From Methanobacteriales archaeon HGW-Methanobacteriales-1 (lineage in GTDB: Archaea > Methanobacteriota > Methanobacteria > Methanobacteriales > Methanobacteriaceae), in assembly GCA_002839705.1 (NCBI GenBank), contig PGYO01000001.1, positions 124,001 to 188,000 of the forward strand: a stretch of 64,000 bases of DNA, written 5' to 3'. The notes under the pieces were generated by a model. The model had not been told where the DNA came from. It saw only the letters and a list, made by a program, of their open reading frames with translations, and did not search any database. The position numbers and the translations under genes were made by a program. Below are positions 42,188-51,557 of the stretch, piece after piece. The first letter of the stretch is position 1. Every line of letters begins with the position of its first letter.

Positions 42188-42694
42188 ATGGTTTCAAACT
42201 GCGATTCTATGGGTGGGCCAGTAGTAAAAGCTGCAGAAATGGCACTTGAAATGGAAAATGTAAATCACATACTTCCTTATGTAAATGAAGAGGATGAAAA
42301 TGAGATAAAGTCTGCATTTGAAAAAGCATCCTTTGTAAGGGAACTTAATGCGGATGCTGCTGATCTGGCTGATTATTGGTTTTTTGAAACGGTTGTTCGT
42401 TTGCATTTAAAAGGAAAAAATGAACCATTCTGTGGAATCAAATCCTCCAAAGATGATTTAAGTCCTATCATGAGAAAAGCAAAGATGGCCATGGATGAAG
42501 AAGACCTCACAGATTTATTTGAGTTTTTATCTGCTAAGCTGGAAACTGAGATGAGAAAAAGGTTCATGGAAGTTTTAAATAGCAAAGACTATGATTTTAA
42601 TGAAGTGGATGAGGCCCGAGAGTATGTAAATTCTGTAATTGAATTTGTATCTTATGTGGATGATGTTCAAAGGTTTTTACATTTTAATGATTGA
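42188..42694 (+). CDS. DUF6448-family protein
   Basis: 168 residues, all helical. The start NCDSMGGPVVKAAEMALEME and the repeat-like KMAMDEEDLTDLFEFLSAK match the family I know as DUF6448 (usually HCDTMDGPV at the start). Function unknown. Many relatives are secreted, but no signal peptide is seen here. GAGGGT precedes the ATG. Confidence 0.7.
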   Translation: MVSNCDSMGGPVVKAAEMALEMENVNHILPYVNEEDENEIKSAFEKASFVRELNADAADLADYWFFETVVRLHLKGKNEPFCGIKSSKDDLSPIMRKAKMAMDEEDLTDLFEFLSAKLETEMRKRFMEVLNSKDYDFNEVDEAREYVNSVIEFVSYVDDVQRFLHFND

Positions 42695-42831: not shown

Positions 42832-43995
42832 TTAAGATCTTTTCATCATTATATCCATTATACTAGATTTTCTTTTATTTTTATTTTCACTAGATGATTG
42901 CATACCTGGCATCATGAGGTTAGGTGAAGATAAAAATTCTTTATTGGCCCTATCTGTAATCTCTTTAAAAATCATTTTATAAGCCTCGCACTGGTGATCT
43001 ACACTTTTTATCTCCATTTTTTGAGATTCTTTATCCATAGTTAAAGCATTGTATGGACAACCACCTCTACAGAACTTTATATAAGAACAATCTGCACATT
43101 CATCATCTACTAATTTTTCCCAGTCTCTTAAGCTTTTTAGAGATTCTGATTTAGATAATTCTTCCATGGTAGGATGATCACGCACATTTCCCATTACATA
43201 TTCTTCCATTCCAACAAAACGATAACAAGGATATATATTTCCATCAGGGCCTATGGCAAAAGTATCGCCTACACAGTCGGCATAGGTACAAACGACCCCT
43301 CGGCGAACAAAAACTCCTTTACAGAGATGGTCAATATTTTTAATCTCTATTTCACCCATGTGTTCTAAATACTGATCTAAAAGATAAATTAGTAATTCCC
43401 CGTACTCTTCTGGAGATATGGTCCACTCTTCAGGGTCTTCACTTCTAAGTGATGGTAGGGCGGGGTGTAATTTAAGATCAAGATTATTATCTAAAAAGAA
43501 ATTAAATATAGCTTCTTTTTGAGCAATAGAACTGGATGTGAAAGTACTTATAAAACTAACATTTAATCCTTTTTCTTTAGCTATTTTATAACCTTGCATT
43601 GTTTTTTCAAAATAGCCTGAACCTCTCTGGGAATCATTTATTTCAAGGGGCCCATCTAAGCTGGATCCAATGGGAATATTATATTCTGCAAAAAGCTCGG
43701 CAATTTCTGGAGTCATTAACCATAAATTAGTTTGAATTGCGAAAGCAGGATTTAAATCACTTAATTCCTGACTTAATAATTCAAGTGCTTTTTTATAGAA
43801 TTCATATCCTGCCAGTAGGGGCTCTCCGCCATGAAAAGTGAAAGTTACTGGTTCTTTTCGGAAATTTTTTAACCATTCCACAGTCTCTTCGACTATTTCG
43901 ATATCCATAAGTTCAGATTCTTTGTCCACACCCCAGCAGTAACTGCAATTGGAGGGACAGTCCATAGAAGGAATTAACATAACATGAAAGGCCAT
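42832..43995 (-). CDS. Peptide-modifying radical SAM/SPASM enzyme (anaerobic sulfatase-maturase-like)
   Basis: 387 residues. The radical SAM cluster motif is C13-x3-C17-x2-C20 (DCPSNCSYCWG), followed by FTFHGGEPLLAG. A C-terminal SPASM domain has CTYADCVGD, CYRF, and CADCSYIKFCRGGC for auxiliary Fe-S clusters. I believe it belongs to the methanogen 'peptide-modifying' group (TIGR04083-like), which modifies a ribosomal peptide. A TATA-like TATTTATAAAAA region lies about 75-90 bases upstream. No obvious cysteine-rich precursor gene is adjacent. Confidence 0.88.
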   Translation of the reverse strand: MAFHVMLIPSMDCPSNCSYCWGVDKESELMDIEIVEETVEWLKNFRKEPVTFTFHGGEPLLAGYEFYKKALELLSQELSDLNPAFAIQTNLWLMTPEIAELFAEYNIPIGSSLDGPLEINDSQRGSGYFEKTMQGYKIAKEKGLNVSFISTFTSSSIAQKEAIFNFFLDNNLDLKLHPALPSLRSEDPEEWTISPEEYGELLIYLLDQYLEHMGEIEIKNIDHLCKGVFVRRGVVCTYADCVGDTFAIGPDGNIYPCYRFVGMEEYVMGNVRDHPTMEELSKSESLKSLRDWEKLVDDECADCSYIKFCRGGCPYNALTMDKESQKMEIKSVDHQCEAYKMIFKEITDRANKEFLSSPNLMMPGMQSSSENKNKRKSSIMDIMMKRS

Positions 43996-44128
43996 TTAAA
44001 CACCGTTTACCTGATTATTATTTAAAATAATTATCTTAATTGACTATTGGTTGTTTTTCAGTATATAGTTTTTATAAATAGTACAATTAATTTTTAATTA
44101 TTTTTAAAATCTTAAAATAAGTATTATG

Positions 44129-44205
44129 GAGGGCCCTTAAACATTTTATAAAAAGGGGGGGGTCAAAATGAGATTAAGGACCCTCTATAACCAATAAAAT
44201 GGTTA
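44129..44205 (-). ncRNA. Stem-loop element 1 with conserved TAACCA hairpin
   Basis: Read on minus: hairpin TAACCA-TTTTAT-TGGTTA (44205-44188), then GAGGGTCCTTAA (44185-44174) pairing with TTAAGGGCCCTC (44140-44129) around a loop with a run of eight C. The one non-Watson-Crick pair is a G-U wobble if transcribed from minus but a C-A mismatch from plus, which favours the minus strand. A non-coding RNA is inferred. Confidence 0.5.
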
Positions 44206-44238
44206 CCTTGATATGTATTGATATTTTAATTTAATAAA

Positions 44239-44323
44239 GCCCTTAGATCCTATAATTTATATTATGGAGTGAGACGATACAACTTATAATGATCTAAGGG
44301 CAAATAACCAAATAAAATGGTTA
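44239..44323 (-). ncRNA. Stem-loop element 2 with conserved TAACCA hairpin
   Basis: Same plan as element 1: TAACCA (44323-44318) and TGGTTA (44310-44305), then an 11-base perfect stem GCCCTTAGATC (44301-44291) with GATCTAAGGGC (44249-44239). The stem sequence differs from the other copies but pairing is kept, which suggests selection on structure. The loop contains TCTCACTCC. Confidence 0.5.
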
Positions 44324-44383
44324 AAGTGATGTTTTTATTTCTTTTTAAATTCTAATATGAAAATTTTAAACATGATAGAAACC

Positions 44384-44431
44384 TCAGAAAATGTTTTTAT
44401 TCGGGGAGGTGAACACCAAAATTTTTTCTGA
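44384..44431 (-). ncRNA. Stem-loop element 4 with CACCTCCCC loop
   Basis: On minus, TCAGAAAA (44431-44424) pairs with TTTTCTGA (44391-44384). The loop holds TTCACCTCCCCG, nearly the anti-Shine-Dalgarno sequence. It lacks the TAACCA hairpin. It lies about 75 bases downstream of the promoter-like repeat at 44504-44527. Confidence 0.4.
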
Positions 44432-44503
44432 AGTATTCTAACAATAAATGAAATGGATATTCCTTTGATTAATTAAACCATCCCATAAATTCTTTTTTGT
44501 GAT

Positions 44504-44527
44504 AGACCTTAAAAGTAGTTTTTCCCA
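44504..44527 (-). promoter_or_regulatory. 24-base repeat, copy 1 (putative promoter for the stem-loop cluster)
   Basis: The minus strand reads TGGGAAAAACTACTTTTAAG followed by GTCT. It is identical to 46599-46622 in front of the ABC exporter. TTTTAA is a plausible TATA core. The stem-loop elements lie downstream of it on the minus strand. Confidence 0.5.
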
Positions 44528-44655
44528 CTTTAGGCCCAAATCATACACAAATTTCCAGTGTAACTTGTTTTAAATAATATTTTAAATAATCAAGTTCTTA
44601 ATATGGAAATCTAATTGAAATTAATATCTTAACCTTATCTTTAATTTTAAAAGAA

Positions 44656-44723
44656 AAAGGGCACTTAAAATGCTGCAAAGGAGGTTAAATGAATAAGTGC
44701 CCTTTCTTATAACCAAATGGTTA
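44656..44723 (-). ncRNA. Stem-loop element 3 at the end of the ABC operon
   Basis: Starts on the stop codon of the ABC ATPase gene: TAACCA (44723-44718) and TGGTTA (44715-44710), then AAAGGGCACTTA (44705-44694) pairing perfectly with TAAGTGCCCTTT (44667-44656), followed by TTCTTTT. The loop contains AACCTCCTTT. It may act as a terminator, a small RNA, or both. Confidence 0.5.
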
Positions 44724-45392
44724 CTTTGAATTTGTTATTTGACCGTCTCGAACTTCAATAGTTCTATCGGCCATGTCTGCCACATATGTTTCGTGAGTTA
44801 CCAGGATTAAAGTAACATTCTCAGCTTTATGAATTTTTTTAAGAACATCTAAAATCACATCGCCTGTTTTAGAATCAAGTGCTCCAGTAGGCTCATCGGC
44901 CAAAATTATGGATGGATGATTAACTAATGCTCGGGCAATGGCTACTCTTTGCCTTTCTCCTCCAGAAAGCTTGGTAGGGAACTGGTTAATTTTAGATGAC
45001 AAATTAAGAGACTCTAAAATGCTATTAGCCCTTTTAATCATATCTTCATCACTTATATCTGTGTGGATCATGGGTATTTGTACATTCTCGGAGACAGTTA
45101 AATTGGGTATCAGGTTATGTAACTGAAATATAAAACCGATTTCTTTAGACCTAAAATGGCTGAAATCCTTTTTTTCCATTAAGTCAATGCCAGCAACATT
45201 TATGGATCCTTCATCGGCTTGATCCAGTGCACCTAACATATTTAAAAGAGTTGATTTACCGGACCCTGAAGGCCCAATAATGGAAACAAACTCTCCTTTT
45301 TTAATTTCTAGATTTAGGTTGTCTAAAGCAATTGTATTTCCGTCGTCATACAATTTTATTAAATTTTTGATTTCAATTATATTTTTATTCAT
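44721..45392 (-). CDS. ABC transporter ATP-binding protein (MacB/LolD-like)
   Basis: 223 residues with Walker A GPSGSGKST, Q-loop FIFQLHNLIP, signature LSGGERQRVAIARAL, Walker B IILADEPTGALDSK and the H-loop LVTHETYVA. It partners the FtsX-type permease, whose stop overlaps its start by 8 bases. Substrate unknown; the linked peptide-modifying enzyme makes peptide export a reasonable guess. Its stop codon is part of stem-loop element 3. Confidence 0.95.
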   Translation of the reverse strand: MNKNIIEIKNLIKLYDDGNTIALDNLNLEIKKGEFVSIIGPSGSGKSTLLNMLGALDQADEGSINVAGIDLMEKKDFSHFRSKEIGFIFQLHNLIPNLTVSENVQIPMIHTDISDEDMIKRANSILESLNLSSKINQFPTKLSGGERQRVAIARALVNHPSIILADEPTGALDSKTGDVILDVLKKIHKAENVTLILVTHETYVADMADRTIEVRDGQITNSK

Positions 45393-46581
45393 AACGCAAC
45401 GCCTCGGTAGGTGCTAATCGGGAAGCCCGATATGCAGGATATAGTCCACCAATTACTCCCATTAAAAGACCTATGCCTAATGCTTTGATGAATAATGTCA
45501 ATGAATATGTTGGTTGAATGAATTGTAGCATGTTAGACAGACTTAATATCTCAACAACACCCACTCCAACTAATATTCCAACAATGGATGCTATTAGGGA
45601 TAGTATCAATGATTCTCCAATTATCATTACCATTACCCATTTTTTAGTCCAACCTACAGCTTTTAATACTCCAATTTCTCTAGTTCTTTCTGAAACTGAT
45701 TTAATCATAGTAATTACAACTATTATTCCTCCAATAAAGATGGCCAGAAGTGAGATTCCCCAGACCGCGGATTTTATAATATCCATTCCAGAGTTCATTC
45801 TATCCATTCCTGATAGTGAAGTAGAAGTTGACAAATCACTGTAGGTGCTTTCGATAGTGTCTGCTGTTTTATTGGCAATACTACTGTCTGTTGTTTTAAC
45901 CAGGACAGAAGAGACTTTTCCAGTATTATTGGTCAGATTTTGTAAGGTACTCAATGACATTATAATACCATTGTCCTGCATTGTTTCTCCAGTTTCATAA
46001 ATTCCAACAATTTTAAAAGTCTGATTGGAAATGGTTACTGTATCCCCAATTGTTTTATTCTGACTCTCCGCTGCAGTTTTACCAATTATAACTTCATCGG
46101 CACTGGAATATGTGGAACCATTGGCCACTTTTACATCATACATTTCGAGATTTTTGGAATCCATTCCTAAAACGGTTGCTGGCATTGTCATACTTGGTTG
46201 ACCAGAGTTTGAACTGCCTGGCTGCTGGTCGGTATTATTCGTACTATTAGTGCTATCATCTGAAATACTGGACCTTAGAACCCCAGCAACACTTTCTACA
46301 CCTGAAATTTGGGCTATTTTATTAACCGTTGTTTCATTAATCAACTGCTGACTTCCTCCAAAACCTCCCGGGCCTCCACCCTGACCATTGTAACTGGCTG
46401 AAACCACTGAGAAGTCTGCTGCACCCGCGGTAAGAGCTTGTTCGGTAGATGTAGATAGTCCATCTGTAAGCAGCCCCAAACCCAGAATGGTAGCAATTCC
46501 TATGGCAATCCCAATCATGGCCAGGGAACTTCTAGCTTTGTTTCTAAAAATGTTTTTTAGAATTAAATTTCTATATTTCAT
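45385..46581 (-). CDS. ABC transporter permease (MacB/FtsX-like)
   Basis: 398 residues: one N-terminal helix, a large outer domain (about residues 40-270) rich in Asn, Ser and Thr, and three C-terminal helices, the MacB layout. The end of the protein holds GGLYPAYRASRLAPTEALRYE, typical of the family. ATG 46581 (MKYRNLILKNIFRNKARSSL) fits the family start; the frame is open further upstream but there overlaps a promoter-like repeat. No binding site precedes 46581, so the mRNA may be leaderless. Confidence 0.92.
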   Translation of the reverse strand: MKYRNLILKNIFRNKARSSLAMIGIAIGIATILGLGLLTDGLSTSTEQALTAGAADFSVVSASYNGQGGGPGGFGGSQQLINETTVNKIAQISGVESVAGVLRSSISDDSTNSTNNTDQQPGSSNSGQPSMTMPATVLGMDSKNLEMYDVKVANGSTYSSADEVIIGKTAAESQNKTIGDTVTISNQTFKIVGIYETGETMQDNGIIMSLSTLQNLTNNTGKVSSVLVKTTDSSIANKTADTIESTYSDLSTSTSLSGMDRMNSGMDIIKSAVWGISLLAIFIGGIIVVITMIKSVSERTREIGVLKAVGWTKKWVMVMIIGESLILSLIASIVGILVGVGVVEILSLSNMLQFIQPTYSLTLFIKALGIGLLMGVIGGLYPAYRASRLAPTEALRYE

Positions 46582-46598
46582 ACTTCTTTTTCTAAAAA

Positions 46599-46622
46599 AG
46601 ACCTTAAAAGTAGTTTTTCCCA
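46599..46622 (-). promoter_or_regulatory. 24-base repeat, copy 2 (putative promoter of the ABC exporter operon)
   Basis: Identical to 44504-44527. On minus, TTTTAA lies about 23-28 bases before the permease ATG at 46581, the spacing expected for a leaderless archaeal transcript. Confidence 0.5.
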
Positions 46623-46802
46623 ATTTGCACACAACTCTTACCTTAATTATACATAAATTATGTACAAATTGGAAGGGCCATGAAAAAATGGACTAAGGTA
46701 CAAATCGTAAACTTATAAAATAAACATTCAAAATAAAATAAAAAATTAATATTATAAATAAATAAGTAAATAAATAATTATTTGTTATTTATTCATTGAT
46801 TA

Positions 46803-47132
46803 TCATCTTCTAGTTAATTTAAATAATATGATAAGTGCAATTAACTGCACTATGTTAATTAATGTTAAGGGTAACCTGGCATGATTAATTTCAGGGCCTG
46901 GTGGTGGGCCGGGTATTGTAAATTGCAGTGCGGCAAATATTACTGAAATAACGTTTTGGAATAGTAAAAGCATTGAAAAGATAATTAGTCCCACTGTAAA
47001 GTCGGATTTGACTTCTTCATAAGTTTTCCAATAGGAATACATTAGAACTAGGAGCAGGGCAATATTTGCAAGTCCAATTACTAAAGCCACAACTGATAAT
47101 TCTATTAAGTGCCAAAATCCATCTATAATCAT
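46803..47132 (-). CDS. Small membrane protein, partner of the winged-helix regulator
   Basis: 109 residues with three hydrophobic helices and an [20 protein letters not shown] segment between the first two. Its start overlaps the regulator stop by four bases (ATGA). A paralogous pair stands at 50806-51406. Function unknown; the fixed pairing suggests that the membrane protein modulates the regulator or is its target. Confidence 0.7.
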
Positions 47133-47422
47133 AATTTTTCCCCATCAATGTCCAGTTTTTGCCAAATTTCTTTAAAATCTGCGTAATTTTCAATTATTTT
47201 GTCTGAAAGAAAATAAAGATCCCCATATTTCTTTCCAGAAGAAGTGACTACCTGATTTTCTTCCAAAACTTTTAAATGATGCCTTACTGTTTTGTAATTA
47301 AGATTTAATGATTCTGTTAATTGATTAGCATTATGAGGCTTTTTATTTAATTCGATTATTATTCTTCCTCGATTAGGGCCCCCAGTGGAACCGGCAATCA
47401 GCCACCATAATAATTTTTTCAT
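47129..47422 (-). CDS. Winged-helix transcriptional regulator (ArsR-like)
   Basis: 97 residues. The recognition-helix region reads [20 protein letters not shown], followed by a wing ([10 protein letters not shown]). The N-terminus [20 protein letters not shown] is typical of methanogen ArsR-like proteins. TAGGGATAAAA precedes the ATG. It may control the divergent or neighbouring exporter, but no operator was identified. Confidence 0.82.
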
Positions 47423-47533: not shown

Positions 47534-47704
47534 TTATTCTTCACTTTCCTTATTTTCACCAGATTCAAATACATAACCACATTTTTCGCAAACAATGGCC
47601 TTGGTGGTGGCATGTGCGAGGTGTTCATCCATCATCTTTCTTTGAACCGTTTTATCTTGACTTCCACATTCTGGACATTTTTTAAGTAATTCTTCCATTT
47701 TCAT
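47534..47704 (-). CDS. Small zinc-ribbon protein
   Basis: 56 residues: MKMEELLKKCPECGSQDKTV and later IVCEKCGYVF form a classic two-pair zinc ribbon, with an acidic C-terminus. GGTGATACA precedes ATG 47704, and a second ATG follows two codons later. It lies 24 bases after the CcdC-like gene on the same strand. Confidence 0.75.
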   Translation of the reverse strand: MKMEELLKKCPECGSQDKTVQRKMMDEHLAHATTKAIVCEKCGYVFESGENKESEE

Positions 47705-50805: not shown

Positions 50806-51114
50806 CTATTCCCACGTAACTTTTATAAGAATTGAAAGCGCTATAAATTCGCTTAAATTAACTACAGTCATTACTGAATGTTCGAATGATCCCCAAAAGT
50901 GCTTATATATTATTAAGGTTAAAACAAACAGTAAATTGTGGACTAAAAGGAATACAGCGAATAATAGGAGACCTAAAGCAAATTTTGACTTAAAGTGATT
51001 GTAATTCTTCCAGTATACAAAAATTAATCCTAATATCAATATTATATTTCCTAGCCCAAAAACAAGGTCAATGGCACTTGAATTCCATATTTGACTTAAA
51101 ATTTCTATTAGCAT
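50806..51114 (-). CDS. Small membrane protein, paralogue of 46803-47132
   Basis: 102 residues with three helices. VYWKNYNHFKSKFALGLLLF parallels [20 protein letters not shown] of the other copy. It lies four bases after the paired winged-helix gene. Function unknown. Confidence 0.7.
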   Translation of the reverse strand: MLIEILSQIWNSSAIDLVFGLGNIILILGLIFVYWKNYNHFKSKFALGLLLFAVFLLVHNLLFVLTLIIYKHFWGSFEHSVMTVVNLSEFIALSILIKVTWE

Positions 51115-51118
51115 TATA

Positions 51119-51406
51119 TTATTCTCCTATTTTTAAATTATCCTTTATTTTTTCAAATATCTTGTAATTTGCTTCCATTTCATCAGAAATGAAAAATAAC
51201 GCCCCGTAACTTACTCCTTTAGTGCATATAATAACATTATTTTCTTCTAATAATCTTAGATGATGTTTAACTGTTTTGTAGTTTAAATTAAGCTCTTCAG
51301 AGATTTGATGGGCATTACATGGCTTTTCATCTATTAAATTTGTTATTTTAGCCCTGTTTATCCCGCCCTTACTACCCATGAAGAGCCACCATATCAGTTT
51401 TTTCAT
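51119..51406 (-). CDS. Winged-helix transcriptional regulator, paralogue of 47129-47422
   Basis: 95 residues from ATG 51406 (MKKLIWWLFMGSKGGINRAK), preceded by AGGGGATTAAT. The helix-turn-helix reads [20 protein letters not shown]. The frame extends ten codons upstream without homology to its paralogue. It is placed at the head of the surface-protein island and may regulate it. Confidence 0.8.
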   Translation of the reverse strand: MKKLIWWLFMGSKGGINRAKITNLIDEKPCNAHQISEELNLNYKTVKHHLRLLEENNVIICTKGVSYGALFFISDEMEANYKIFEKIKDNLKIGE

Positions 51407-51557
51407 ATTAATCCCCTGCTTCACTAAAAGATTCATAAAACACGAAAATTACTTAAAATCTTTTTTTATCTATTTATACTATAAATATCAATTTTTTTTG
51501 TATTATGTGGTATAATAATCTTTTTTATCATAATTTACTCATTATTTAAAGAATATA

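Follow-up and report, generated by a model that had tools for sequence, protein, structure and literature searches.

What does a radical SAM/SPASM enzyme act on when its gene lies next to genes for a MacB-like exporter and no peptide precursor is visible between them? The question is raised by a 64,000-nucleotide stretch of the genome of Methanobacteriales archaeon HGW-Methanobacteriales-1 (contig PGYO01000001.1, positions 124,001 to 188,000; hereafter, the window), in which the enzyme is encoded as follows.

42832-43995, minus strand: radical SAM/SPASM enzyme of 387 amino acids, NCBIfam family TIGR04083 (622.7 bits), proposed McrA maturase

Comparisons of sequences and gene neighborhoods lead us to consider it reasonably probable that TIGR04083 matures methyl-coenzyme M reductase (MCR) and, most likely, is the enzyme that turns one aspartate in the McrA active site (Asp470 in M. 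acetivorans) into didehydroaspartate. With slightly less assurance, we favor a fuller account in which TIGR04083 is a cobalamin-free SPASM desaturase of this aspartate, M. wolfeii is a natural knockout, and the small protein TIGR04165 is a helper specific to the Methanobacteriales.

MCR is the source of nearly all biological methane and bears several modified residues. The enzymes that form the methylarginine, methylglutamine, thioglycine, and methylcysteine of McrA are known, according to the available portions of three papers (PMC7581889, PMC11796369, PMC7058361); the enzyme for didehydroaspartate was stated as not known in those of PMC7581889 (2020) and PMC8070964 (2021). No enzyme was named for this residue in the passages searched of MCR papers since 2020 that mention it, a search that did not extend to preprints or most subscription papers, and the family names TIGR04083 and TIGR04165 were not found in the portion of the literature searched. 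If our assignment is correct, a gene would have been found for an McrA modification that has no known enzyme, and the odd contrast between M. wolfeii and M. marburgensis would have an explanation. Moreover, the role of the didehydroaspartate double bond could be tested by a single deletion in a tractable methanogen, and a public family name that reads "peptide-modifying" would be corrected.

The window enzyme is a full-length member of TIGR04083 (rSAM_pep_methan) by profile search, exceeding the cut-off of 300 bits over residues 4 to 385; despite the family name, the evidence favors McrA over a peptide as the target. The first-pass annotation had reported that all of the cysteines for the radical SAM and auxiliary clusters were present, and this was borne out: the CX3CX2C motif comprises C13, C17, and C20, the eight SPASM cysteines are C236, C241, C257, C300, C303, C309, C313, and C336, and all 11 positions are cysteine in 87/87 aligned TIGR04083 sequences. 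The only Pfam domains listed for the enzyme were Radical_SAM, SPASM, and a weak Fer4_12, with no cobalamin domain. In the available portions of PMC5943407 and PMC11796369, Mmp10/MamA and MgmA, the C-methylases of McrA arginine and glutamine, are likewise radical SAM modifiers of McrA that are often encoded beside mcr; unlike the window enzyme, a SPASM protein, they are methylases of other families.

TIGR04083 is closely associated with mcrA. Among 294 genomes of the phylum that contains genome G151, which we take to be Halobacteriota, TIGR04083 was found in 88 and mcrA above its cut-off in 128; 86 of the 88 TIGR04083-positive genomes had mcrA above its cut-off. In 18 of these 86, the enzyme gene lay 143 to 1344 bp downstream of mcrA and shared its strand. 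If genes were placed at random, about 0.04 such cases would be expected, by a rough estimate that assumes 1.3 mcrA copies in a genome averaging 2.5 Mb. Twenty loci were inspected, namely the 18 adjacent ones plus G444 and G370; by eye, mcrG was present in 18 of them and mcrC in 17, which places the enzyme gene after the mcr operon. In a tree of 87 enzymes, made with FastTree on an automatic alignment, the 18 adjacent copies fell in four places (the node joining the G360-type clade, in which the gene lies beside mcrA, to G385 has a support of 0.25), and Fitch parsimony required 5 changes compared with an average of 16.6 when the labels were shuffled. The adjacent copies therefore cluster by clade and do not represent 18 independent events. 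In two genomes (G203 and G183), MCR component A2 (TIGR03269, 849 and 789 bits; cut-off, 517.1) is encoded close to the enzyme gene. In G118, the enzyme has a neighbor with two ABC ATPase domains that at first resembled component A2; it was not counted, since the open reading frame (ORF) presumably encodes ABCE1, a ribosome-recycling protein.

These neighborhoods also bear on the idea that the enzyme matures some other methanogen protein, neither McrA nor TIGR04165, with adjacency to mcrA reflecting coregulation only. Many of the 86 genomes do carry the gene at a distance from mcrA (26 have the two more than 15 kb apart on one contig, and 36 have them on different contigs), as that idea would allow; however, it does not account readily for adjacency in four positions of the tree, for the component A2 neighbors in two genomes, or for the agreement between gene state and modification state described below, and we regard it as rather improbable.

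Didehydroaspartate is not present in every MCR, which allows its distribution to be compared with the state of the TIGR04083 gene. Table 1 of PMC9081873 lists the residue for both M. marburgensis enzymes (MCR I and II) and for those of M. barkeri and M. acetivorans; the MCRs listed without it, two of them from Methanococcales, are those of M. kandleri, M. formicicus, M. wolfeii, M. thermolithotrophicus, M. shengliensis, ANME-1, and Ethanoperedens; the available part of PMC12413448 reports it in ANME-2c and both ANME-2d enzymes. The DLQDQ stretch around the target aspartate is kept in G142, G149, and G000 and in nearly all of the 55 other aligned McrA rows, whether the residue is modified or not; therefore, the target itself does not separate modified from unmodified McrA.

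The state of the enzyme gene does separate M. marburgensis from M. wolfeii. In M. marburgensis (G142), whose McrA is identical to 3POT/5A0Y over 550 residues, the TIGR04083 gene is intact. Genome G149 is M. wolfeii by its McrA sequences, which match 5A8K (MCR I, 550/550) and 5A8W (MCR II, 554/554), both named as M. wolfeii entries in the available portions of two papers. Its TIGR04083 gene, read from one assembly, carries an in-frame TAG at the Tyr339 codon, a position that is tyrosine in 86/86 other sequences with a residue there. By the enzyme model, the stop would remove most of the last two predicted helices (residues 336 to 356 and 379 to 384), in a region where the predicted local distance difference test score (pLDDT) is 35 to 72 beyond residue 360. 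The TIGR04165 gene upstream of the broken gene is open.

Of two named controls, M. acetivorans has TIGR04083 above the cut-off, and M. jannaschii has none at an E value of ≤1e-60, with a weak match below the cut-off at ≤0.001. G345, which has the McrA nearest to the ANME-2d chains 9QQT and 9QR1, is TIGR04083 positive, and G324, which has the McrA nearest to the ANME-1 chain 3SQG, has no TIGR04083. The best match to M. shengliensis McrA in searches of 185 and 237 genomes was 76% identical; therefore, this species is not among the genomes searched. In all, gene state fits modification in the three species read directly (M. marburgensis, M. acetivorans, and M. wolfeii) and in the three groups read from one relative each (ANME-2d, Methanococcales, and ANME-1), although G395, a second ANME-2d-like genome, gave no TIGR04083.

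In the 131 Methanobacteriales genomes with TIGR04083 above the cut-off, disabling changes within the frame were found only in M. wolfeii (TAG), G058 (TGA), and G147 (a frameshift), a count that leaves out genes cut by contig ends and G116, where the gene is in two pieces below the cut-off. The frameshift in G147 (L178), a single-contig genome, may be real or an old sequencing error. At the order-wide rate, the chance of the M. wolfeii match is about 2%.

A chemical precedent is available. In the anaerobic sulfatase-maturating enzyme (anSME), a side-chain carbon loses a hydrogen and the second electron passes to an auxiliary cluster, a two-electron oxidation. Formation of a Calpha-Cbeta double bond in aspartate is also a two-electron oxidation, so by analogy this chemistry could lie within reach of a related enzyme. 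The nearest solved fold to the enzyme model was anSMEcpe (PDB 4K36-4K39), with an E value of 4e-21 and a template modeling score of about 0.8; the fold is shared for most of the chain, and the sequence alignment covers residues 10 to 346, SPASM cysteines included. The two proteins differ in that identity is about 25% and in that the product of anSMEcpe is formylglycine, whereas the proposed product here is a C=C bond in aspartate.

The first-pass annotation had named, as the alternative to peptide modification, a role in protein maturation such as sulfatase activation. A protein-maturation role is indeed favored by our evidence; a sulfatase as the target is not, McrA being the likely one. The sulfatase maturase family, TIGR03942, is the second-best match to the enzyme and agrees with the closest fold, but its score of 187.5 bits falls far under the cut-off of 349.45, and the genome gave no match to the sulfatase domain PF00884 in a search that was positive in 10 of 14 control genomes. 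An anaerobic sulfatase maturase is thus scarcely credible here, and for a genome at 98% completeness we count that reading as already refuted.

From these comparisons we infer a substrate, a residue, and a reaction. The enzyme would bind McrA at an exposed stretch while the protein is nascent or unfolded and, like the anaerobic sulfatase maturase, would need no leader-binding domain for this. A 5'-deoxyadenosyl radical would then abstract one hydrogen of the aspartate side chain, with the second electron going to an auxiliary [4Fe-4S] cluster, and deprotonation would complete the Calpha-Cbeta double bond. No additional leader-binding domain (the recognition element of ribosomally synthesized and posttranslationally modified peptide [RiPP] systems) was found in the enzyme sequence by Pfam or in the model, and the chain begins with the radical SAM core. 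Such an absence is what might be expected of a protein maturase; it is no proof, as not all RiPP maturases have the element.

Several points weigh against the assignment to McrA. Two TIGR04083-positive genomes (G299 and G317) gave no mcrA at an E value of ≤1e-60, and 42 of the 128 mcrA-positive genomes gave no TIGR04083 at the same limit. Some of these 42 are closely related to positive genomes, namely G395, a 1.6-Mb assembly that is a close relative of the ANME-2d-like G345, G155 and G165 (relatives of G175), G193, and G157; such absences may reflect incomplete assemblies or real losses. The gene was not found in G365 and G414 either. Within the Methanobacteriales, the enzyme gene was beside mcrA in none of the 13 genomes in which both were located, its usual neighbor being TIGR04165. 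The comparison with modification state covers six cases, each a species or its nearest relative, and an exact test on them gave a P value of only 0.1, which proves nothing alone. Two of the eight Methanothermobacter copies are broken, so within that genus the chance of the M. wolfeii match rises to 25% and the match is weaker evidence. Since only TIGR04083 was compared with the modification table, a rival gene could fit as well. Furthermore, the proposed catalytic base of anSME, which we take to be Asp277, aligns with an invariant tyrosine of the enzyme (Tyr258), and a different base would therefore be needed.

The usual neighbor of the enzyme gene in the Methanobacteriales is also present in the window.

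47534-47704, minus strand: small CxxC...CxxC protein of 56 amino acids, predicted zinc ribbon, NCBIfam family TIGR04165 (90.6 bits)

With a cut-off of 60 bits, this ORF is a member of TIGR04165 (methano_modCys). The first-pass annotation had found no cysteine-rich peptide in the neighborhood, a statement that does not hold: the gene sits about 3.5 kb upstream of the enzyme gene on the same strand and was missed because the interval under inspection stopped at 46581. Among 150 Methanobacteriales genomes, TIGR04165 was above its cut-off in 135 and TIGR04083 in 131. Completeness of 90% or more and contamination of 5% or less were found for 90 genomes, of which all 90 matched TIGR04165 and 89 matched TIGR04083 at an E value of ≤0.001, a looser limit than the family cut-offs. 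Positions were compared in the 132 genomes that list both (the TIGR04083 rows of G031 and G064 being below the cut-off), and in 101 of them TIGR04165 lay within 600 bp upstream of the enzyme gene on the same strand, often at 20 to 76 bp. In the remainder, it lay 0.6 to 5 kb upstream (four genomes, the window included), just downstream (one), on another contig (22), or more than 5 kb away (four), and genus g13 supplies 19 of the last 26.

Could TIGR04165 be the substrate, with the link to MCR only indirect? The family name suggests a modified, cysteine-rich protein, the two genes occur in near-equal numbers and are neighbors in most genomes, and the stretch between the CxxC knuckles, which reads R..D.H.AHA in most sequences, is conserved more than a zinc site requires. 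We nevertheless consider this doubtful. TIGR04165 was matched in none of the three TIGR04083-positive genomes of the other phylum that were tested (G150, G151, and G152), and a self-built profile found no TIGR04165-like ORF in their loci L087, L089, and L090; TIGR04165 is not obligatory for the enzyme. In M. wolfeii the small gene is open although the enzyme is truncated. The TIGR04165 model, from a five-sequence alignment, has a pLDDT of 71.8, three strands, and two CxxC knuckles, and its best structural matches were zinc ribbons of transcription proteins, none at an E value of ≤0.001; with modest confidence, the model thus resembles a zinc ribbon rather than a leader plus core. Genus g13 has the two genes on separate contigs or far from each other, and in both g13 sequences read (L033 of G127 and L049 of G118), where TIGR04165 is far from the enzyme, the AHA motif between the knuckles has become AYG. 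There is also a paralogue in another gene context: a second TIGR04165-like protein (64.5 bits) is encoded at 6088-6324 of L095 (G000:C6), downstream of what by eye is a MOSC-like gene, on a contig different from that of the sole TIGR04083 gene. With McrA as the substrate, TIGR04165 would instead be an accessory or delivery partner of the enzyme in the Methanobacteriales. In the window, an unrelated exporter cassette separates the two genes.

This cassette comprises the four genes that stand between TIGR04165 and the enzyme.

47129-47422, minus strand: ArsR-type helix-turn-helix protein (PF01022), the first gene of the cassette
46803-47132, minus strand: membrane protein of 109 amino acids (ORF)
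45385-46581, minus strand: MacB/FtsX-type permease (PF12704 and PF02687 above the cut-off)
44721-45392, minus strand: LolD/MacB-type ATP-binding cassette (ABC) ATPase (PF00005 above the cut-off)

The downstream order on the minus strand is thus TIGR04165, the ArsR-type protein, the 109-residue membrane protein, the permease, the ATPase, a 725-bp gap rich in hairpins, and the enzyme. The adjoining MacB-like exporter that the first-pass annotation had described was confirmed by Pfam for both the permease and the ATPase, although the best NCBIfam match of the ATPase (TIGR02211, 237.3 bits) is below the cut-off of 307.75. The permease may start at GTG 46632 instead of ATG 46581.

Comparison with sister genomes indicates that the cassette is a local insertion. 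The same four genes separate TIGR04165 from the enzyme in G139, but in G138 the interval is only 331 bp; the cassette is missing there, and both flanking genes are kept. The G138 interval holds a 64-nucleotide stretch that resembles the 3' end of the 109-residue membrane protein gene (75% identity), which we read as a probable deletion scar. In G140, two other genes occupy the interval; the ArsR-type gene is missing from it in both G138 and G140. Since the interval varies among these genomes, the transporter is no fixed part of the enzyme system, and the exporter was rejected as a conserved partner of the enzyme; nor do we propose the ArsR-type protein as a component. A second pair of genes for a helix-turn-helix protein and a membrane protein, similar to the first two of the cassette, lies at 50806-51436 on the minus strand.

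The layout of the window by itself might suggest a RiPP system with a cryptic short peptide encoded in the 725-bp gap, the enzyme as its modifier, and the MacB-type transporter as its exporter. MacB-type exporters do serve some modified peptides, the enzyme and exporter genes adjoin in the window, and the ATPase matches NCBIfam exporters of bacteriocins and darobactin, all below their cut-offs. We judge such a system highly improbable: the cassette is missing from a sister that retains the enzyme and its partner, and an exporter that is a local insertion does not support an exported peptide product. The description of the enzyme as a peptide modifier therefore stands as regards its radical SAM/SPASM class and falls as regards an exported peptide. 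The gap (43996-44720) is also a poor source of a precursor. As the first-pass annotation had noted, it holds only very short frames; the longest ORF lying entirely within it, with ATG, GTG, or TTG starts, is 36 amino acids. The 12-codon frame MFKIFILEFKKK singled out at the time is present in the window, but a one-base insertion or deletion breaks it in the sister G139, and a precursor in this interval was rejected.

What the gap does contain is a cluster of stem-loops, three two-hairpin elements in tandem and a fourth hairpin, in the place where a precursor would have been expected, as had been remarked.

44120-44209, minus strand: two-hairpin element, copy 1 (z -4.16; related copy in G140)
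44222-44327, minus strand: two-hairpin element, copy 2 (z -6.09)
44640-44727, minus strand: two-hairpin element, copy 3, overlapping the end of the ATPase gene (z -4.29)
44365-44440, minus strand: fourth hairpin with a C-rich loop, overlapping the short frame of the first-pass annotation (z -3.39)

These four stretches fold 3.4 to 6.1 standard deviations below their shuffles, with 0 of 200 shuffles equally stable in each case, and are thus beyond chance; we take them for RNA or DNA structures rather than a precursor. Copies of the first hairpin motif occur in G139 (three) and G140 (one). A search against Rfam gave three matches at an E value of ≤1, all under the gathering scores and taken as chance, and the hairpin pattern had 11 matches across the whole genome, three of them in this gap, compared with 8 for a reversed control. 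Two of the loops contain CCUCC, like the anti-Shine-Dalgarno sequence, and a third contains a run of C.

A 70-nucleotide direct repeat, 73% identical between its copies (44484-44553 and 46579-46648), places a second copy of the permease gene leader in the gap. On the other side of the enzyme, its gene is adjoined by a DUF6448 gene on the plus strand (42188-42694), an arrangement also seen in G138, G139, G140, and G008.

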